DNA of 64,000 bases from Flavobacteria bacterium MS024-2A (GTDB lineage Bacteria; Bacteroidota; Bacteroidia; Flavobacteriales; Flavobacteriaceae), in assembly GCA_905182305.1 (NCBI GenBank), contig CAJJBB010000010.1, positions 1 through 64,000 of the forward strand. The letters run 5' to 3'. Below, in pieces: positions 53,187-58,418 of the stretch; within the stretch, counting starts at the first letter, position 1; each line of letters begins with the position of its first letter. A program made the position numbers and the translations under genes. Under the pieces are notes generated by a model that saw only the letters and a list, made by a program, of their open reading frames with translations, had not been told where the DNA came from and did not search any database.

Positions 53187-54047
53187 TTAAACCTTACGGG
53201 ATCGTAAACTTTCTATAACAACAGTTATTAAAATAATTCCACCTCCAATAAGACTACTCGCCGGGGGAATTTCATTTAAAAAGAAAAAAGCAAGGAGAAT
53301 TCCAAAAATGGGTTGAATGCTGTTCATGATACTTGCCGTTGCCACCGTAAAATAGGTTAAGCTATTTAGAAACAAGGTGTGTCCAATAGCAGTAGTGACA
53401 AATCCTAAAAATAATAAATAGGGAATTTGTGACGATAAGGAGTCAAGTGGATAAATTAATATCACAGGAAAAAGGAGGAGAATGGTGATTCCCATTTGAT
53501 AAAACATTAGTAAAGAGCCATTGATTTTTTTAGTTCTTTTTTTAATAATCAAGTTTCTAAGGGCATAGGTCAAAGCCGAGAATAAACCCATAAAAAGCCC
53601 TTTGGTTTGTTCGGTTTCAAAATCAAAGGCAGGGACGAGAAGATAAATACCAAATAAAATGAGGAATCCAAAAAGCAAATGAATGGGGTGGAGTTTTGTT
53701 TTAAAGAACAGTGGTTCAAGAAAAACGGTGATGATAGGGAAAGTAAACATTGATAACATTCCAACGGCGACCCCACTCCACTGTAAAGCAAAAAAATAAG
53801 TGACCCAATGAAGGGTGAGTAAGGTCCCGCTATAAATTATAGTATATCTGTTTTCTGCAAATCCTGTTCTAATCTTCTCTTTTTTCCAATAACAATACGC
53901 TCCTAAAACAAGAAAGGCAACAAAGGCTCTAGACCAAATAATCAATGGAGGCGGTAGAGGAATAAAACGACCCAAGGGTCCAGATGTACTAATGCATAAC
54001 ATCCCTAAATTGAGAATAAGAATGTTATAAAGATGACGATTTTTCAT
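53187..54047 (-). CDS. EamA/DMT family transporter
   Basis: The 286-residue protein has ten predicted membrane spans arranged as two EamA repeats (about 8-135 and 150-282). Typical pieces are GPLGRFIPLPPPLIIWSRAF in the first repeat and SIMNSIQPIFGILLAFFFLNE in the second. The family exports metabolites such as amino acids or sugars; the substrate cannot be told. It lies 35 bases upstream of gldA on the same strand, and about 300 bases from the divergent Phe/Tyr operon promoter. Confidence 0.9.
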   Translation of the reverse strand: MKNRHLYNILILNLGMLCISTSGPLGRFIPLPPPLIIWSRAFVAFLVLGAYCYWKKEKIRTGFAENRYTIIYSGTLLTLHWVTYFFALQWSGVAVGMLSMFTFPIITVFLEPLFFKTKLHPIHLLFGFLILFGIYLLVPAFDFETEQTKGLFMGLFSALTYALRNLIIKKRTKKINGSLLMFYQMGITILLLFPVILIYPLDSLSSQIPYLLFLGFVTTAIGHTLFLNSLTYFTVATASIMNSIQPIFGILLAFFFLNEIPPASSLIGGGIILITVVIESLRSRKV

Positions 54048-54296
54048 TCTTAAAAGTTGGTTTCAAAGTGCTAAAATCCATAAATAACCCGATATAAAAA
54101 AATAGGATTCTTGTTAATCGAAATGAGAGAGAAAAGGTGTTTTTCATTATTAAATATTTCAATCTATTGAATTTCAATGGTCACACCTTATTTTTTTGTT
54201 TGGCTTTATCGGGGATTAATAAAAATATTTTTTGTGACACTAACCTTGAAAGACGTTAAATTTAATCTAGTTTAGATAAAAAAAAATCCTAAAAAT

Positions 54297-54326
54297 TTGT
54301 TTTTTACAAAAGCAATGTTACTTTTG
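54297..54326 (+). promoter_or_regulatory. Promoter of the Phe/Tyr operon
   Basis: TTG at 54297-54299 and TACTTTTG at 54319-54326 are 19 bases apart, matching the Bacteroidota consensus. Transcription would begin near 54333, some 13 bases before the leader-peptide start. The 250 bases between this and the EamA gene hold nothing I recognise. Confidence 0.75.
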
Positions 54327-54345
54327 TTATGATTTTTAAATAACA

Positions 54346-54414
54346 ATGAATAAAACTTTCTTTTACTACAATAACTTTTACTACTTCTACTCAGAAGCAG
54401 ACAGGACTTTGTAG
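54346..54414 (+). CDS. Phe/Tyr-rich leader peptide of the aromatic operon
   Basis: An ATG at 54346 opens a 22-codon frame ending in TAG (54412). Residues 5-15 read FFYYNNFYYFY: four Phe and five Tyr out of eleven, in front of an operon that makes Phe and Tyr. The peptide has no likely function of its own; stalling at these codons when charged tRNA-Phe or tRNA-Tyr is scarce would steer the downstream RNA fold. Note the Asn-Asn pair splitting two aromatic runs. Confidence 0.9.
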   Translation: MNKTFFYYNNFYYFYSEADRTL

Positions 54415-54472
54415 TATTTAGAATACGATATATAAAAACAAAAAAGTCCTGATTAATCGGGACTTTTTTTTT
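54402..54472 (+). terminator. Attenuator: antiterminator and terminator before pheA
   Basis: The terminator stem is AAAAAAGTCC (54440-54449) with GGACTTTTTT (54460-54469), extended inside by a short pairing of TGATT and AATCG, and followed by T residues to 54472. The antiterminator is CAGGACTTT (54402-54410), perfectly complementary to AAAGTCCTG (54443-54451), the left arm of the terminator. A ribosome at the leader stop (54412) would cover the antiterminator arm; one stalled at 54358-54390 would not. A third pairing, TACTACAA (54364-54371) with TTGTAGTA (54409-54416), can form when the leader is not translated. Confidence 0.9.
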
Positions 54473-54479
54473 GGAACAA

Positions 54480-55313
54480 ATGAAAGAAAACACAAACATA
54501 GCAATTCAAGGAGTCGAAGGATCTTTCCACCATGCGGTAGCAAAGAGTTACTATGGGAAGCACTTGTCTTTGATGGAATGCGAAACTTTCGATGCAACCG
54601 TTAATGCACTGAGGGATAATTCTGCTGATCAGGCGGTGATGGCGATAGAAAACTCTATTGCGGGATCTATTATTCCTAATTACGCATTGATTGATCAAAA
54701 CGATCTTCAGATCGTGGGCGAGTATTCACTTAGTATCCATCACAATTTGATGGCCCTCCCGGGGCAGAGCTTGGCTGATCTTAAGGAAGTGCACTCACAT
54801 CCTATGGCTTTGTTGCAGTGTAAAGATTTTTTCAAAGACTATCCGCACATTCGTTTGATAGAAGCAGAAGATACGGCCAATGAAGCCCGACGTATATCAG
54901 AGCATAAGATTTCTGGAATAGCCGCAATTGCGAGCAAAGAAGCAGCAAGCTTATATGCCCTGGAAGTATTGGTCCCTTCCATTCAGACCATTAAAAATAA
55001 TGTCACTCGTTTTGTGATTATCCAGAATAAAGGAACTTTAATTCCTCAAAAAAAAATCAATAAAGCGACTATAAAATTCATCTTAGATCATCAGCGTGGA
55101 AGTTTGGCTGCGGTCTTAAATGTTATGAGCGATTGTCAACTCAATCTCACCAAAATTCAATCTTTACCTGTGATTGAAACCCCTGGTAAATATGCTTTTT
55201 TCGTAGATGTAACTTTTGATGAATTTAAATTTTACGATAAGGCACGAAAGTTAATTACCATTATGGCATCACAATTTAAAATTTTAGGCGAATATGCCCA
55301 ACACTCAAGATGA
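54480..55313 (+). CDS. pheA: Prephenate dehydratase
   Basis: The product (277 residues from this ATG) has a periplasmic-binding-protein-like prephenate dehydratase domain (AIQGVEGSFHHAVAK, MAIENSIAGSI, NNVTRFVII with the catalytic Thr-Arg-Phe) and a C-terminal ACT domain (about 192-270, LDHQRGSLAAVLNVMSD) for feedback by Phe. It makes phenylpyruvate. No chorismate mutase is fused here; that activity is at the end of the operon. A TTG at 54471 lies in the terminator T-run and is not a credible start. Its stop overlaps the next start (ATGA). Confidence 0.95.
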   Translation: MKENTNIAIQGVEGSFHHAVAKSYYGKHLSLMECETFDATVNALRDNSADQAVMAIENSIAGSIIPNYALIDQNDLQIVGEYSLSIHHNLMALPGQSLADLKEVHSHPMALLQCKDFFKDYPHIRLIEAEDTANEARRISEHKISGIAAIASKEAASLYALEVLVPSIQTIKNNVTRFVIIQNKGTLIPQKKINKATIKFILDHQRGSLAAVLNVMSDCQLNLTKIQSLPVIETPGKYAFFVDVTFDEFKFYDKARKLITIMASQFKILGEYAQHSR

Positions 55314-56461
55314 TAGCAACGGCAAAGCGTTTAGCGAGTGTTCAGGAATACTATTTTTCCCGCAAGTTGCGAGAAGTATCCCAGATGGTTCAACAAGGAC
55401 ATCCTGTAATCAATATGGGTATTGGCAGTCCCGATTTGGCACCCCATCCGGATGTGATCAATGCCTTGTCAAAAGCCATGGAACATCCCAGAGCGAACAT
55501 GTATCAAAGCTATCAAGGGCTTCCAGAATTACGCTCAGCGATTGCTGATTTTTACCAAAACCATTACCAGGTTACTTTAGATCCTAATGCAGAGGTTCTT
55601 CCTTTGATGGGCTCCAAAGAGGGGATCATGCATATTTCGATGGCTTTTTTAAATAAAGGTGATCAGGTATTGTTTCCTAATCCTGGATATCCCACCTATG
55701 CTGTGGTTACTAAACTTTTGGAAGCAGAGCCTGTATTGTATAATTTAACAGCTGCTAACCATTGGCAACCTGATTTTGAGGCCCTGGAAGCGCTGGACAC
55801 TTCTCGCGTAAAAATCATGTGGATTAATTATCCCCATATGCCAACTGGCTCAGAAGCGCAAGCCGAAACCTTTGACCGATTAATCGCTTGGGCGAAAGCG
55901 CGTAATATTTTATTAGTAAATGACAATCCTTACAGTTTTGTTTTGACTCAAAAACCACAAAGTATTTTATCTCGCCCCGGAGCGATAGAAGTTGCTATGG
56001 AATTAAATTCATTAAGTAAATCATTTAACATGGCAGGCTGGCGCGTGGGTATGTTATGTGGGAAAGCAGAAACAATACAAGCCGTTTTAAAAGTAAAAAG
56101 TAATATGGATTCTGGAATGTTTTTTGGAATTCAACAAGGGGCAATCGCTGCTTTGAATGTAGACGTTTCATGGTTTGAAAGTCTGAATACTATTTACAGG
56201 AAACGCCGAAAGTTGGTTGAGAAATTAGCTACAAAATTAGGAGCTAAATTTGATCCGAAAAGTGTCGGTCTTTTCGTTTGGGCAAAGTTGCCAAAAGGGG
56301 AGGTAGACTCTGAAACGTTTATCGATAAAATTTTACAGAAGCAATATGTTTTTATCACACCAGGAACTATTTTTGGAAGTCAAGGGGAGGGATATATTCG
56401 ATTTTCATTGTGCGTTCCAGAAGCCACAATTGAAGAAGCAATAAAACGTTTTGGATCATGA
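55310..56461 (+). CDS. PLP-dependent aminotransferase of the Phe/Tyr operon
   Basis: The 383-residue class I/II aminotransferase has NMGIGSPDLAPHPDV near the N-terminus, NYPHMPTGSEA, the PLP lysine in SLSKSFNMAGWRVGM (near residue 240) and YIRFSLCVPE near the end. In this operon it most likely converts phenylpyruvate and 4-hydroxyphenylpyruvate to Phe and Tyr, or acts on prephenate to form arogenate. Both joints are 4-base ATGA overlaps with pheA and tyrA, so expression is tightly coupled. The substrate is inferred from context. Confidence 0.9.
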   Translation: MIATAKRLASVQEYYFSRKLREVSQMVQQGHPVINMGIGSPDLAPHPDVINALSKAMEHPRANMYQSYQGLPELRSAIADFYQNHYQVTLDPNAEVLPLMGSKEGIMHISMAFLNKGDQVLFPNPGYPTYAVVTKLLEAEPVLYNLTAANHWQPDFEALEALDTSRVKIMWINYPHMPTGSEAQAETFDRLIAWAKARNILLVNDNPYSFVLTQKPQSILSRPGAIEVAMELNSLSKSFNMAGWRVGMLCGKAETIQAVLKVKSNMDSGMFFGIQQGAIAALNVDVSWFESLNTIYRKRRKLVEKLATKLGAKFDPKSVGLFVWAKLPKGEVDSETFIDKILQKQYVFITPGTIFGSQGEGYIRFSLCVPEATIEEAIKRFGS

Positions 56462-57324
56462 AAATAGGTGTAATCGGTTTGGGTTTAATTGGCGGTTCTT
56501 TTGCTTTAGCAGCAAAAAAATTCAATATTGGGGCAAGTCTTTATGGACAAGATAATAATCCAAAACACATGGAGGAAGCATTGAATTTAAGAATTATAGA
56601 CCATCCTCTTGAGGTTGATAATTATGCCTCTATGGACGTTATTTTAATGGCGATTCCCGTAGATGCATGTCTTACTTTGGTACTTTCCCTTTTGGATCAG
56701 ATTAATGATAATGCTTTATTACTAGATGTCGGGTCAACGAAATCCGCTATATGTAAGCATATAGAATTACACCCCAAACGCAATCAATTTTTAGCAACAC
56801 ATCCTATTGCAGGAACAGAATTTTCTGGTCCTTCTGCTGCTTTTGCAGAATTATTTGTGGAACAAGCGCAGATTTTGTGTGAAACCTCTAAAACACGTCC
56901 CGATCTTCTGGAGTGGGCGGTTCAGTGGTTTAGGAATATGAATATGGAAATACATGAGATGGACGCCGAAGCACATGACAAGCATATTGCTTATGTCTCT
57001 CATCTATCCCATATTTCCTCATTTATGTTAGGAAAGACGGTAATTGAAAAAGAAAAAGATGAACGGGCTATTTTTAAAATGGCGGGGAGTGGATTTGCCT
57101 CTACTGTTAGACTGGCAAAAAGTTCACCCGATATGTGGATCCCTATCTTTAAACAGAATAAAGAAAATATACTAGAGGTTTTAAAAGAATACATCTCCAA
57201 TTTGGAACATTTTGAACGTCTTTTAGAGTCTGATGACTTTGATCAACTTTTTAAACAACTGAAAAACACCAATACGATTAAAACCATTTTGGCAGGAATC
57301 AACGAAAAAAACATAACTAAATAA
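56458..57324 (+). CDS. tyrA: Prephenate dehydrogenase
   Basis: The 288-residue NAD(P)-dependent enzyme has the Rossmann motif GVIGLGLIGGSFA at residues 3-15, DVGSTKSAI (near 93), the conserved THPIAGTEFSGPSAA (near 114) and HDKHIAYVSHLSH (near 178) with catalytic-region His. It makes 4-hydroxyphenylpyruvate, or tyrosine if it uses arogenate. No ACT domain is visible. It overlaps the aminotransferase gene by 4 bases, and the DAHP synthase follows 11 bases later. Confidence 0.95.
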   Translation: MKIGVIGLGLIGGSFALAAKKFNIGASLYGQDNNPKHMEEALNLRIIDHPLEVDNYASMDVILMAIPVDACLTLVLSLLDQINDNALLLDVGSTKSAICKHIELHPKRNQFLATHPIAGTEFSGPSAAFAELFVEQAQILCETSKTRPDLLEWAVQWFRNMNMEIHEMDAEAHDKHIAYVSHLSHISSFMLGKTVIEKEKDERAIFKMAGSGFASTVRLAKSSPDMWIPIFKQNKENILEVLKEYISNLEHFERLLESDDFDQLFKQLKNTNTIKTILAGINEKNITK

Positions 57325-57335
57325 TAATTTAAATC

Positions 57336-58418
57336 ATGGAAAATAAAAAAGAAATGCGCCAATGGTTAACTGATTTTGGCCTAGACCATCCCTTAGTGAT
57401 CGGCGGACCTTGTAGTGCAGAAACCGAAGAGCAAGTATTGAAAATTGCTCACGAATTGAAAGAAACTGATGTAACGGTTTATCGCGCTGGAATCTGGAAG
57501 CCTAGAACACGCCCCGGAATGTTTGAAGGGGTGGGTGCTATTGGTTTAGGATGGTTGAAAAAAGTAAAAGAAGAAACCGGCTTATTGACGGCTACTGAGG
57601 TGGCAAATAAAGACCATGTAAAATTAGCTCTAGATAATGATGTCGATATTTTGTGGATAGGTGCTCGTTCCACGGTTAGTCCATTCATAATGCAAGAAAT
57701 TGCAGACGCATTGGAAGGAACAGATAAAATTGTTTTGGTAAAAAATCCAGTAAACCCTGATTTGGCTTTATGGCTAGGAGGTGTTGAGCGTTTATATACA
57801 GCAAACATCAAAAAGTTAGGTTTAATTCATCGTGGATTTTCAACCTATGAAAAAACAAAATACCGTAATATCCCTGAATGGCAAATTGCGATTGAGGTGA
57901 AAAATAAATTTCCTGATTTACCGATGATTTGTGACCCTTCTCATATTGGAGGGAAACGAGATTTGATTTTAGATATTTCTCAAACTGCATTAGACTTGAA
58001 TTTTGATGGCTTGATGATTGAAACTCACTGTGATCCAGACAATGCTTGGAGTGACGCGGCGCAACAAGTAACTCCCAAGCGCTTGGTCGAAATAATGAAG
58101 GATTTAAAAGTTCGGAAGAAAACAAACGAAGAAGAAGCATATCTTCATTCTTTAAATAATTTAAGAGCTCAGATTGATGTTGTAGATCAAACGCTTTTAG
58201 ATACCTTGGGAAAACGAATGAAAACTGCTGTAGAAATAGGTACCCTTAAAAGAGATAACAATGTTGCAGTTCTTCAAAATAAACGCTGGAATGAGATTCT
58301 GGGTAAAATGATTTTAGAGGGACAGGAACGTAATCTTTCTGAAGAATTTATTTTAAGAGTGTTTAAAGCGATTCACCAAGAATCAATTAATCAACAAGAA
58401 AAGATTATCAATTCATAA
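57336..58418 (+). CDS. Bifunctional DAHP synthase / chorismate mutase
   Basis: The first 260 residues form a DAHP synthase of the AroAbeta/KDO8PS-like type: VIGGPCSAETEEQ with the metal-binding Cys, RAGIWKPRTRPG, ICDPSHIGGKRD and GLMIETHCDPDNAWSD. The last 90 residues are an AroQ chorismate mutase (NNLRAQIDVVDQTLLDTLGKRM). It performs the first step of the shikimate pathway and the branch step toward Phe/Tyr. Ending a Phe/Tyr-specific attenuated operon, it lets aromatic need control pathway entry. In related fusions the mutase domain also acts as the feedback sensor. Confidence 0.95.
   Translation: MENKKEMRQWLTDFGLDHPLVIGGPCSAETEEQVLKIAHELKETDVTVYRAGIWKPRTRPGMFEGVGAIGLGWLKKVKEETGLLTATEVANKDHVKLALDNDVDILWIGARSTVSPFIMQEIADALEGTDKIVLVKNPVNPDLALWLGGVERLYTANIKKLGLIHRGFSTYEKTKYRNIPEWQIAIEVKNKFPDLPMICDPSHIGGKRDLILDISQTALDLNFDGLMIETHCDPDNAWSDAAQQVTPKRLVEIMKDLKVRKKTNEEEAYLHSLNNLRAQIDVVDQTLLDTLGKRMKTAVEIGTLKRDNNVAVLQNKRWNEILGKMILEGQERNLSEEFILRVFKAIHQESINQQEKIINS

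Follow-up and report, generated by a model that had tools for sequence, protein, structure and literature searches.

The pheA attenuator of enterobacteria combines an aromatic leader peptide, a competing antiterminator and a U-tract terminator that precedes pheA. The locus described here lies in a stretch of DNA of 64,000 nucleotides (the window) from a marine flavobacterium. It resembles the enterobacterial system in having an aromatic leader, a competing antiterminator and a U-tract terminator ahead of pheA, and differs from it in its mixed Phe and Tyr codons, its joint Phe/Tyr operon and its Bacteroidota promoter. The Rfam family Phe_leader (RF01859) gives a weak match at 54345–54472 that spans model positions 1–125; because the match reaches 21.5 bits (E 0.19) against a gathering score of 55, the pheA leader is not assigned to that family. 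Thr_leader scores slightly above Phe_leader at the same site (23.1 bits, cut-off 55).

Within the Bacteroidota, Bacteroid-trp (RF01692) was described as a leader RNA (Weinberg 2010, PMC2864571). Rfam calls it a tryptophan peptide leader; its codons are Trp codons, whereas those of the pheA leader of the window are Phe and Tyr, and Bacteroid-trp is absent from the Rfam matches listed there. PMC4833913 cites a comparative study of 2010 by Lopatovskaya and others. In Flavobacterium psychrophilum, a transcribed and structured 5′ element at pheA has been reported that is conserved in other genera of the Flavobacteriaceae, together with strong clues for upstream leader peptide attenuation at amino acid operons (PMC9723704). 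A pheA 5′ element in this family is thus already in print. It shares gene and family with the window element and is presumably the same element; in the text of that report that was compared, neither the sequence of a pheA leader nor its arms or geometry are given. The flavobacterial group is also reported there as not relying on Shine-Dalgarno sequences. Among the papers listed in searches on the subject, none tested a pheA attenuator of the Bacteroidota by experiment, which is not proof of absence. With regard to origins, Sun et al. 2013 (PMC3766115), working solely from the Rfam leader models of that time, put forward a possible beginning of amino acid attenuators in the gamma-proteobacteria, with very few transfers.

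Anatomy of the leader region

The elements of the leader region, with the evidence for each in brackets, are:

54296–54299, + strand: −33 element, TTTG (sequence; near-clade conservation)
54319–54326, + strand: −7 element, TACTTTTG (consensus TAnnTTTG; near-clade conservation)
54346–54414, + strand: leader peptide ORF of 22 codons, MNKTFFYYNNFYYFYSEADRTL, with its ATG at 54346 and stop codon TAG at 54412–54414 (sequence; conserved in relatives)
54364–54371, + strand: arm 1, the protector, with its partner at 54409–54416 (fold; double changes; synonymous-recoding test)
54402–54416, + strand: arm 2, of which 54402–54410 pairs with arm 3 as antiterminator and 54409–54416 with arm 1 (sequence; duplex, distance and joint-variation tests)
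54440–54452, + strand: arm 3, the 5′ arm of the terminator, of which 54443–54451 pairs with arm 2 (sequence; fold; duplex and joint-variation tests)
54457–54469, + strand: arm 4, the 3′ arm of the terminator (sequence; fold; terminator survey)
54464–54472, + strand: U-tract of the intrinsic terminator, overlapping arm 4 (sequence)

As read from the sequence, 19 nt separate the TTTG from TACTTTTG, which fits TAnnTTTG, the flavobacterial promoter consensus placed at −12 to −5 (PMC9723704). With the box in that position, transcription is predicted to start at about 54331, leaving a 15-nt 5′ end ahead of the leader; use of this promoter is likewise a prediction. The −7 box is present in 42 of 42 near-clade loci, with TTTG 18–21 nt upstream of it in 41 of the 42. 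Family-wide, the exact box occurs in 24 of 129 loci, against 149 of 2580 mononucleotide shuffles, so the box is well conserved in the near clade only. A scan for E. coli-type promoters did not list this promoter, where the Bacteroidota consensus fits instead, and a genome-wide search with the promoter pattern proved too unspecific (866 matches, against 553 with the pattern reversed).

Nine Phe or Tyr residues (4 Phe, 5 Tyr) occupy residues 5–15 of the leader. Downstream, CAGGACTTT (54402–54410) is the perfect complement of AAAGTCCTG (54443–54451), and AAAAAAGTCCTGA-TTAA-TCGGGACTTTTTT (54440–54469) forms a hairpin (13 bp, UUAA loop) that runs into nine T, with seven bases between the end of the U-tract (54472) and the pheA ATG (54480). 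The initial annotation had put forward these same parts: a promoter with both elements, a 22-codon leader with nine aromatic residues, an antiterminator of nine perfect pairs and a U-tract terminator seven bases ahead of pheA. Each was recovered on the sequence. Its list lacked an 8-bp stem, UACUACAA (54364–54371) with UUGUAGUA (54409–54416), that competes with the antiterminator; this stem is the protector and completes the full four-arm design of the trp type. RNA from 54330 to 54490 folds with z = −4.6 (0 of 200 shuffles as good), and 54394–54475 alone with z = −3.06 (1 of 200). When both strands of the 64-kb window were scanned for short ORFs that start with ATG, are enriched for any one of ten residue groups and stand directly before a hairpin plus T-run, the pheA leader was the sole place returned.

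The operon downstream of the leader

Four genes follow the terminator:

54480–55313, + strand: pheA, prephenate dehydratase with ACT domain (PF00800, 4.9e-57; the ACT match is under its Pfam cut-off)
55310–56461, + strand: class I/II aminotransferase (PF00155)
56458–57324, + strand: tyrA, prephenate dehydrogenase (NF006307, above cut-off)
57336–58418, + strand: aroF/CM, fused DAHP synthase and chorismate mutase (PF00793 and PF01817)

Adjoining genes overlap or are separated by an 11-nt gap, and the order pheA-aminotransferase-tyrA-aroF recurs in 76 of 80 relatives' loci, the remaining four displaying just the first one to three genes. The product of the window pheA shares 91% identity with its counterpart in an uncultured Flavobacteriaceae genome and 83% with the one in the Flavobacteria bacterium MS024-2A record, and has matches of about 70% in Candidatus Arcticimaribacter. 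A leader with both Phe and Tyr codons fits a joint Phe/Tyr operon, as the initial annotation had proposed from the mixed codons.

The upstream neighbour (53187–54047, − strand) is a divergent EamA-family transporter, and among ORFs of 80 aa or more, none on the plus strand has its end between 52261 and the terminator, which is therefore unlikely to be part of an upstream gene. The transporter matches the YddG aromatic amino acid exporter model at 26.8 bits (E 3.3e-06), far under the cut-off of 300, and might export aromatic amino acids.

Distribution of the leader

All 110 loci of a first gathering carry the leader, from near relatives (MNTTFFYYNNFYYFYTEAGRTL) through Flavobacterium (MSNNRFYFSNSFYFFFSRSEDCAMVI), whose type of leader is present in Flavobacterium johnsoniae CI04 (L098); these loci comprise 82 distinct leader-to-pheA stretches, from source sets of 30 and 80 loci that overlap in part. 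A broader sample of the Flavobacteriaceae took 149 genomes, nearly one per genus, of which 134 have a pheA match, and the leader was found in 129 of the 134. This count combines 128 of 133 loci with at least 6 Phe or Tyr in 12 codons, a density reached by 77 of 1020 dinucleotide shuffles, with one genome (G267) that was scanned separately and has a leader. The five family genomes that lack one are L199, L245, L258, L260 and L280. At L260, a 287-codon ORF on the same strand stops about 40 nt short of the match, so that pheA may lie within an operon; at L280, a 197-codon ORF, also on the same strand, stops about 250 nt short of it.

Beyond the Flavobacteriaceae, 32 of 46 distinct pheA loci of the class have a leader, including one doubtful case (L307) in which the leader lies 261 nt ahead of the pheA match and the duplex is no better than shuffles; a 47th locus, from G504 (L342), also has one. 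A PF00800 search of the class found 41 of 149 genomes, and a protein search of the phylum found pheA in 215 of 247; judged by the latter, the PF00800 first look seems insensitive, and it was not used for presence or absence. In other classes of the phylum, none of 19 hand-picked pheA loci (L315–L333) has a leader when scanned from the first in-frame ATG with a threshold of 5 Phe, Tyr or Trp in 12 codons. Leaders are carried by four genomes outside the class Bacteroidia (L304, L305, L306 and L309), whose pheA is 42–44% identical to that of the window. The other genomes listed for three of the four families (f83, f86 and f101) have a pheA of 30–36% identity, and in the fourth (f95) the remaining genomes with a match have E-values of 1e-27 or weaker, against 4.6e-68. 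For these four genomes the comparison suggests transfer of pheA along with its attenuator. Set beside the gamma-proteobacterial origin suggested by Sun et al. 2013, the counts of 129 of 134 Flavobacteriaceae genomes and 32 of 46 other class loci suggest that the Bacteroidia possess a widespread set of amino acid attenuators of their own.

Conservation of the aromatic codons

The comparisons of arms and spacing further below use a family set of 128 loci, 127 of them from the 149-genome sample and one (L292) from the phylum protein search, and a class set of 36 that includes two Flavobacteriaceae loci (L121, L124) and the four out-of-class loci. Both Phe and Tyr codons are present in all of the 128 family leaders counted by density above. 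Among 28 close leaders, nearest neighbours differ at aromatic codons 43 times, and 37 of these differences retain Phe or Tyr (30 synonymous changes and 7 Phe-Tyr exchanges, with 6 others; reciprocal pairs can count twice); of 36 possible single changes, 8 would retain an aromatic residue. Such in-frame conservation is that of a presumably translated leader rich in codons for the amino acids that the operon produces.

Competing RNA stems

An intrinsic terminator lies between the leader and the first gene in nearly all of the loci surveyed, a hairpin with T-run being detected in 285 of 291. Four of the six exceptions, which were dropped from the later tests (L073, L078, L083 and L089, the others being L129 and L314), have short leader-to-pheA stretches of 119–120 nt, which probably reflects a pheA start placed too far upstream.

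The antiterminator was assessed as the best pairing of the RNA after the last aromatic codon with the terminator 5′ arm, compared with shuffles of the same RNA; choosing arm 2 as the best duplex favours pairing, which makes the shuffles the fair comparison. Identical leader-to-pheA stretches were counted once, and two of the 110 first loci (L016, L040) were left out of the terminator, arm and spacing analyses for an ambiguous base. Across the 128 family loci, the median energy of the duplex of arms 2 and 3 is −10.9 kcal/mol, where shuffles average −5.3, and among 100 shuffles it ranks in the best 5% in 120 loci and in the best 1% in 97. The signal is weaker elsewhere, with the best 5% reached by 62 of 78 near relatives and Flavobacterium loci and by 28 of 36 in the class set.

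The complementary arms differ by genus, being AGGACTTT/AAAGTCCT in the window and CGAGAC/GTCTCG, CGGGACT/AGTCCCG or CCGGGTT/AACCCGG elsewhere. In the doubly paired core, arms 2, 3 and 4 covary position by position across genera; at one example position the three bases read GCG in 55, ATA in 34, ATG in 29 and CGC in 4 of 127 loci. By eye, the antiterminator of L028, L030 and L052 appears shifted in register, with GATCAGG/CCTGATC instead of AGGACTT/AAGTCCT. Where the leader stops early (L041, L062 and L064), the arm 2 sequence is retained wholly or largely as non-coding RNA, as expected of a function in the RNA.

In the near clade (41 sequences), 85.9% of antiterminator cells pair, against 29.5–56.9% when the arms are slid, and no pair is changed on both sides; all 500 of 500 column shuffles reach the percentage paired, because arm 3 is almost invariant. 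Support for an antiterminator that shares the terminator 5′ arm, and so excludes the terminator, therefore comes from the wider family. The protector and terminator of the near clade contain 11 doubly changed cells, a number matched by 0 of 500 shuffles; these cells lie in just 2 pairs (140 of 500 shuffles reach 2), all in the protector stem. In 61 of the 128 family loci, against 6.4 expected, the fold of the leader as far as arm 3 surpasses that of synonymous recodings at the 5% level. Fold, double changes and synonymous recoding all speak for the stem between arms 1 and 2. The initial annotation had expected an alignment of relatives' pheA upstream regions to show conserved aromatic codons and compensatory changes in the two competing stems: the codons are conserved and the arms covary across the family, but the near-clade antiterminator lacks compensatory change.

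Spacing of the aromatic codons and arm 2

Pairing in arm 2 begins 7–14 nt past the last aromatic codon (median 11) in 127 of the 128 family loci, a spacing found in 444 of 2560 shuffled RNAs; in the class set the figures are 31 of 36 and 104 of 720. The start of arm 2 relative to the stop codon is more variable, with a 5–95% range of −18.6 to +2. A ribosome that terminates translation is taken to cover −18 to +12 around the stop codon. Arm 2 lies wholly inside these limits in 120 of 128 family loci and in 18 of 36 class loci; in 5 of the 36, none of it lies there. Thus a ribosome at the last aromatic codon would just clear arm 2 and a terminating one would usually cover it, a placement found in 127 and 120 of the 128 family loci, respectively. 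It is the distance from codon to arm 2, more than the position of the stop codon, that is conserved. The initial annotation had set the stop just behind the antiterminator arm; this is true in the window, but the exact stop position varies in relatives and the codon-to-arm distance is tighter. Attenuation needs a ribosome close behind RNA polymerase, and the conserved distance therefore makes transcription-translation coupling in the Bacteroidota directly testable.

Proposed mechanism and its alternatives

The locus very probably controls its aromatic amino acid operon by ribosome-mediated transcription attenuation of the trp type. The Phe/Tyr attenuator already proposed in the initial annotation gains support from the frame, the aromatic codons, the covariation of the arms and the survey of terminators. 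Anatomy, conservation, joint arm variation and geometry are observed; leader translation, stalling, termination and the response to amino acids are predicted from them. RNA polymerase would start at about 54331 and a ribosome would enter the leader. Scarcity of charged tRNA-Phe or tRNA-Tyr would stall it in codons 5–15, where it would cover or disrupt arm 1 and leave arm 2 free to capture arm 3 ahead of the synthesis of arm 4. The terminator would then be blocked and pheA-aminotransferase-tyrA-aroF/CM transcribed. With both tRNAs well charged, the ribosome would reach the stop codon and cover arm 2, allowing arms 3 and 4 to form the terminator and transcription to end near 54472. In an untranslated leader, arm 1 would pair with arm 2 and the terminator would also form.

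Folding with ribosome-occluded segments yields the protector plus the terminator when no ribosome is present and the terminator only with a ribosome at the stop codon. With the RNA made to 54456, a ribosome placed on any one of the five aromatic codons that were tried gives the antiterminator. Once arm 4 is present, the terminator wins at equilibrium in 5 of 5 stalled states. In these models, therefore, the switch would have to be kinetic, decided during transcription, and the equilibrium result counts against a purely thermodynamic reading.

The stability of the fold on its own would also suit a plain terminator joined to a conserved, structured 5′ UTR that binds a small molecule or a protein, with a short frame that is incidental. 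This is very unlikely, because the aromatic codons are kept in frame through synonymous change, Phe and Tyr recur in every family leader at a tight distance from arm 2, and Rfam returns no match above its cut-off and no riboswitch or T-box among 26 weak matches at the leader. Another alternative is constitutive early termination, or a short sRNA made from the pheA promoter without amino acid sensing, given that a promoter with a terminator about 140 nt downstream would yield a short RNA; the conservation of the antiterminator arm beyond shuffles and of the protector fold beyond synonymous recoding makes this the least probable of the alternatives.

The leader might instead act on translation, through reinitiation or masking of the pheA start. 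The terminator is so close to the pheA ATG that termination and start masking are hard to tell apart by sequence, and reinitiation has been argued for leaders close to genes (PMC4833913). Yet 65 nt separate the leader stop from the pheA ATG, far above the Bacteroidetes peak of 11–14 bp given in that source, and the hairpin keeps its T-run in nearly all of the loci surveyed, so that a translational mode deserves very little credence, less than the bound 5′ UTR and a little more than early termination.

Tryptophan codons and a wider reading of the leader

A Trp codon is present in 87 of 128 Flavobacteriaceae leaders, every one within the 12-codon aromatic core, a core picked by Phe/Tyr/Trp density, which favours finding Trp inside it. 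Trp makes up 3.1% of family leader residues, against 1.3% in six window proteins; the window's own pheA leader has zero Trp codons. Sensing of Trp as well is plausible because the DAHP synthase of the operon feeds all three aromatic amino acids. A tentative reading, on balance doubtful, is that of an old Bacteroidia attenuator in which one leader reads Phe, Tyr and Trp and which apparently accompanied pheA into a small number of genomes from other classes. Such an attenuator, if real, implies close ribosome-polymerase coupling on a leader in a group said to initiate translation without Shine-Dalgarno sequences.

Other candidate leaders and elements in the genome

Two further candidate leaders are found in the same genome. 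At L353 (G000 C6, − strand), a His leader, MKLMNIHHHYLEVSNES, lies upstream of hisG, with its stop 95 nt before the first in-frame hisG ATG and, by eye, a hairpin and T-run between. At L354 (G000 C5, − strand), a Trp leader, MNKITILNSWWHTNSNSSS, lies upstream of trpE with a terminator-like hairpin and T-run, again by eye; it scores 43.7 bits with Bacteroid-trp RF01692, under the gathering score of 49. A search at ilvD gave no convincing leader, the best two short ORFs beginning with TTG. Three biosynthetic operons of the organism, pheA, hisG and trpE, probably share an attenuation logic. Elsewhere in the window, 42417–42476 matches the SAM-II riboswitch of Rfam at 67.9 bits, above the cut-off of 44.
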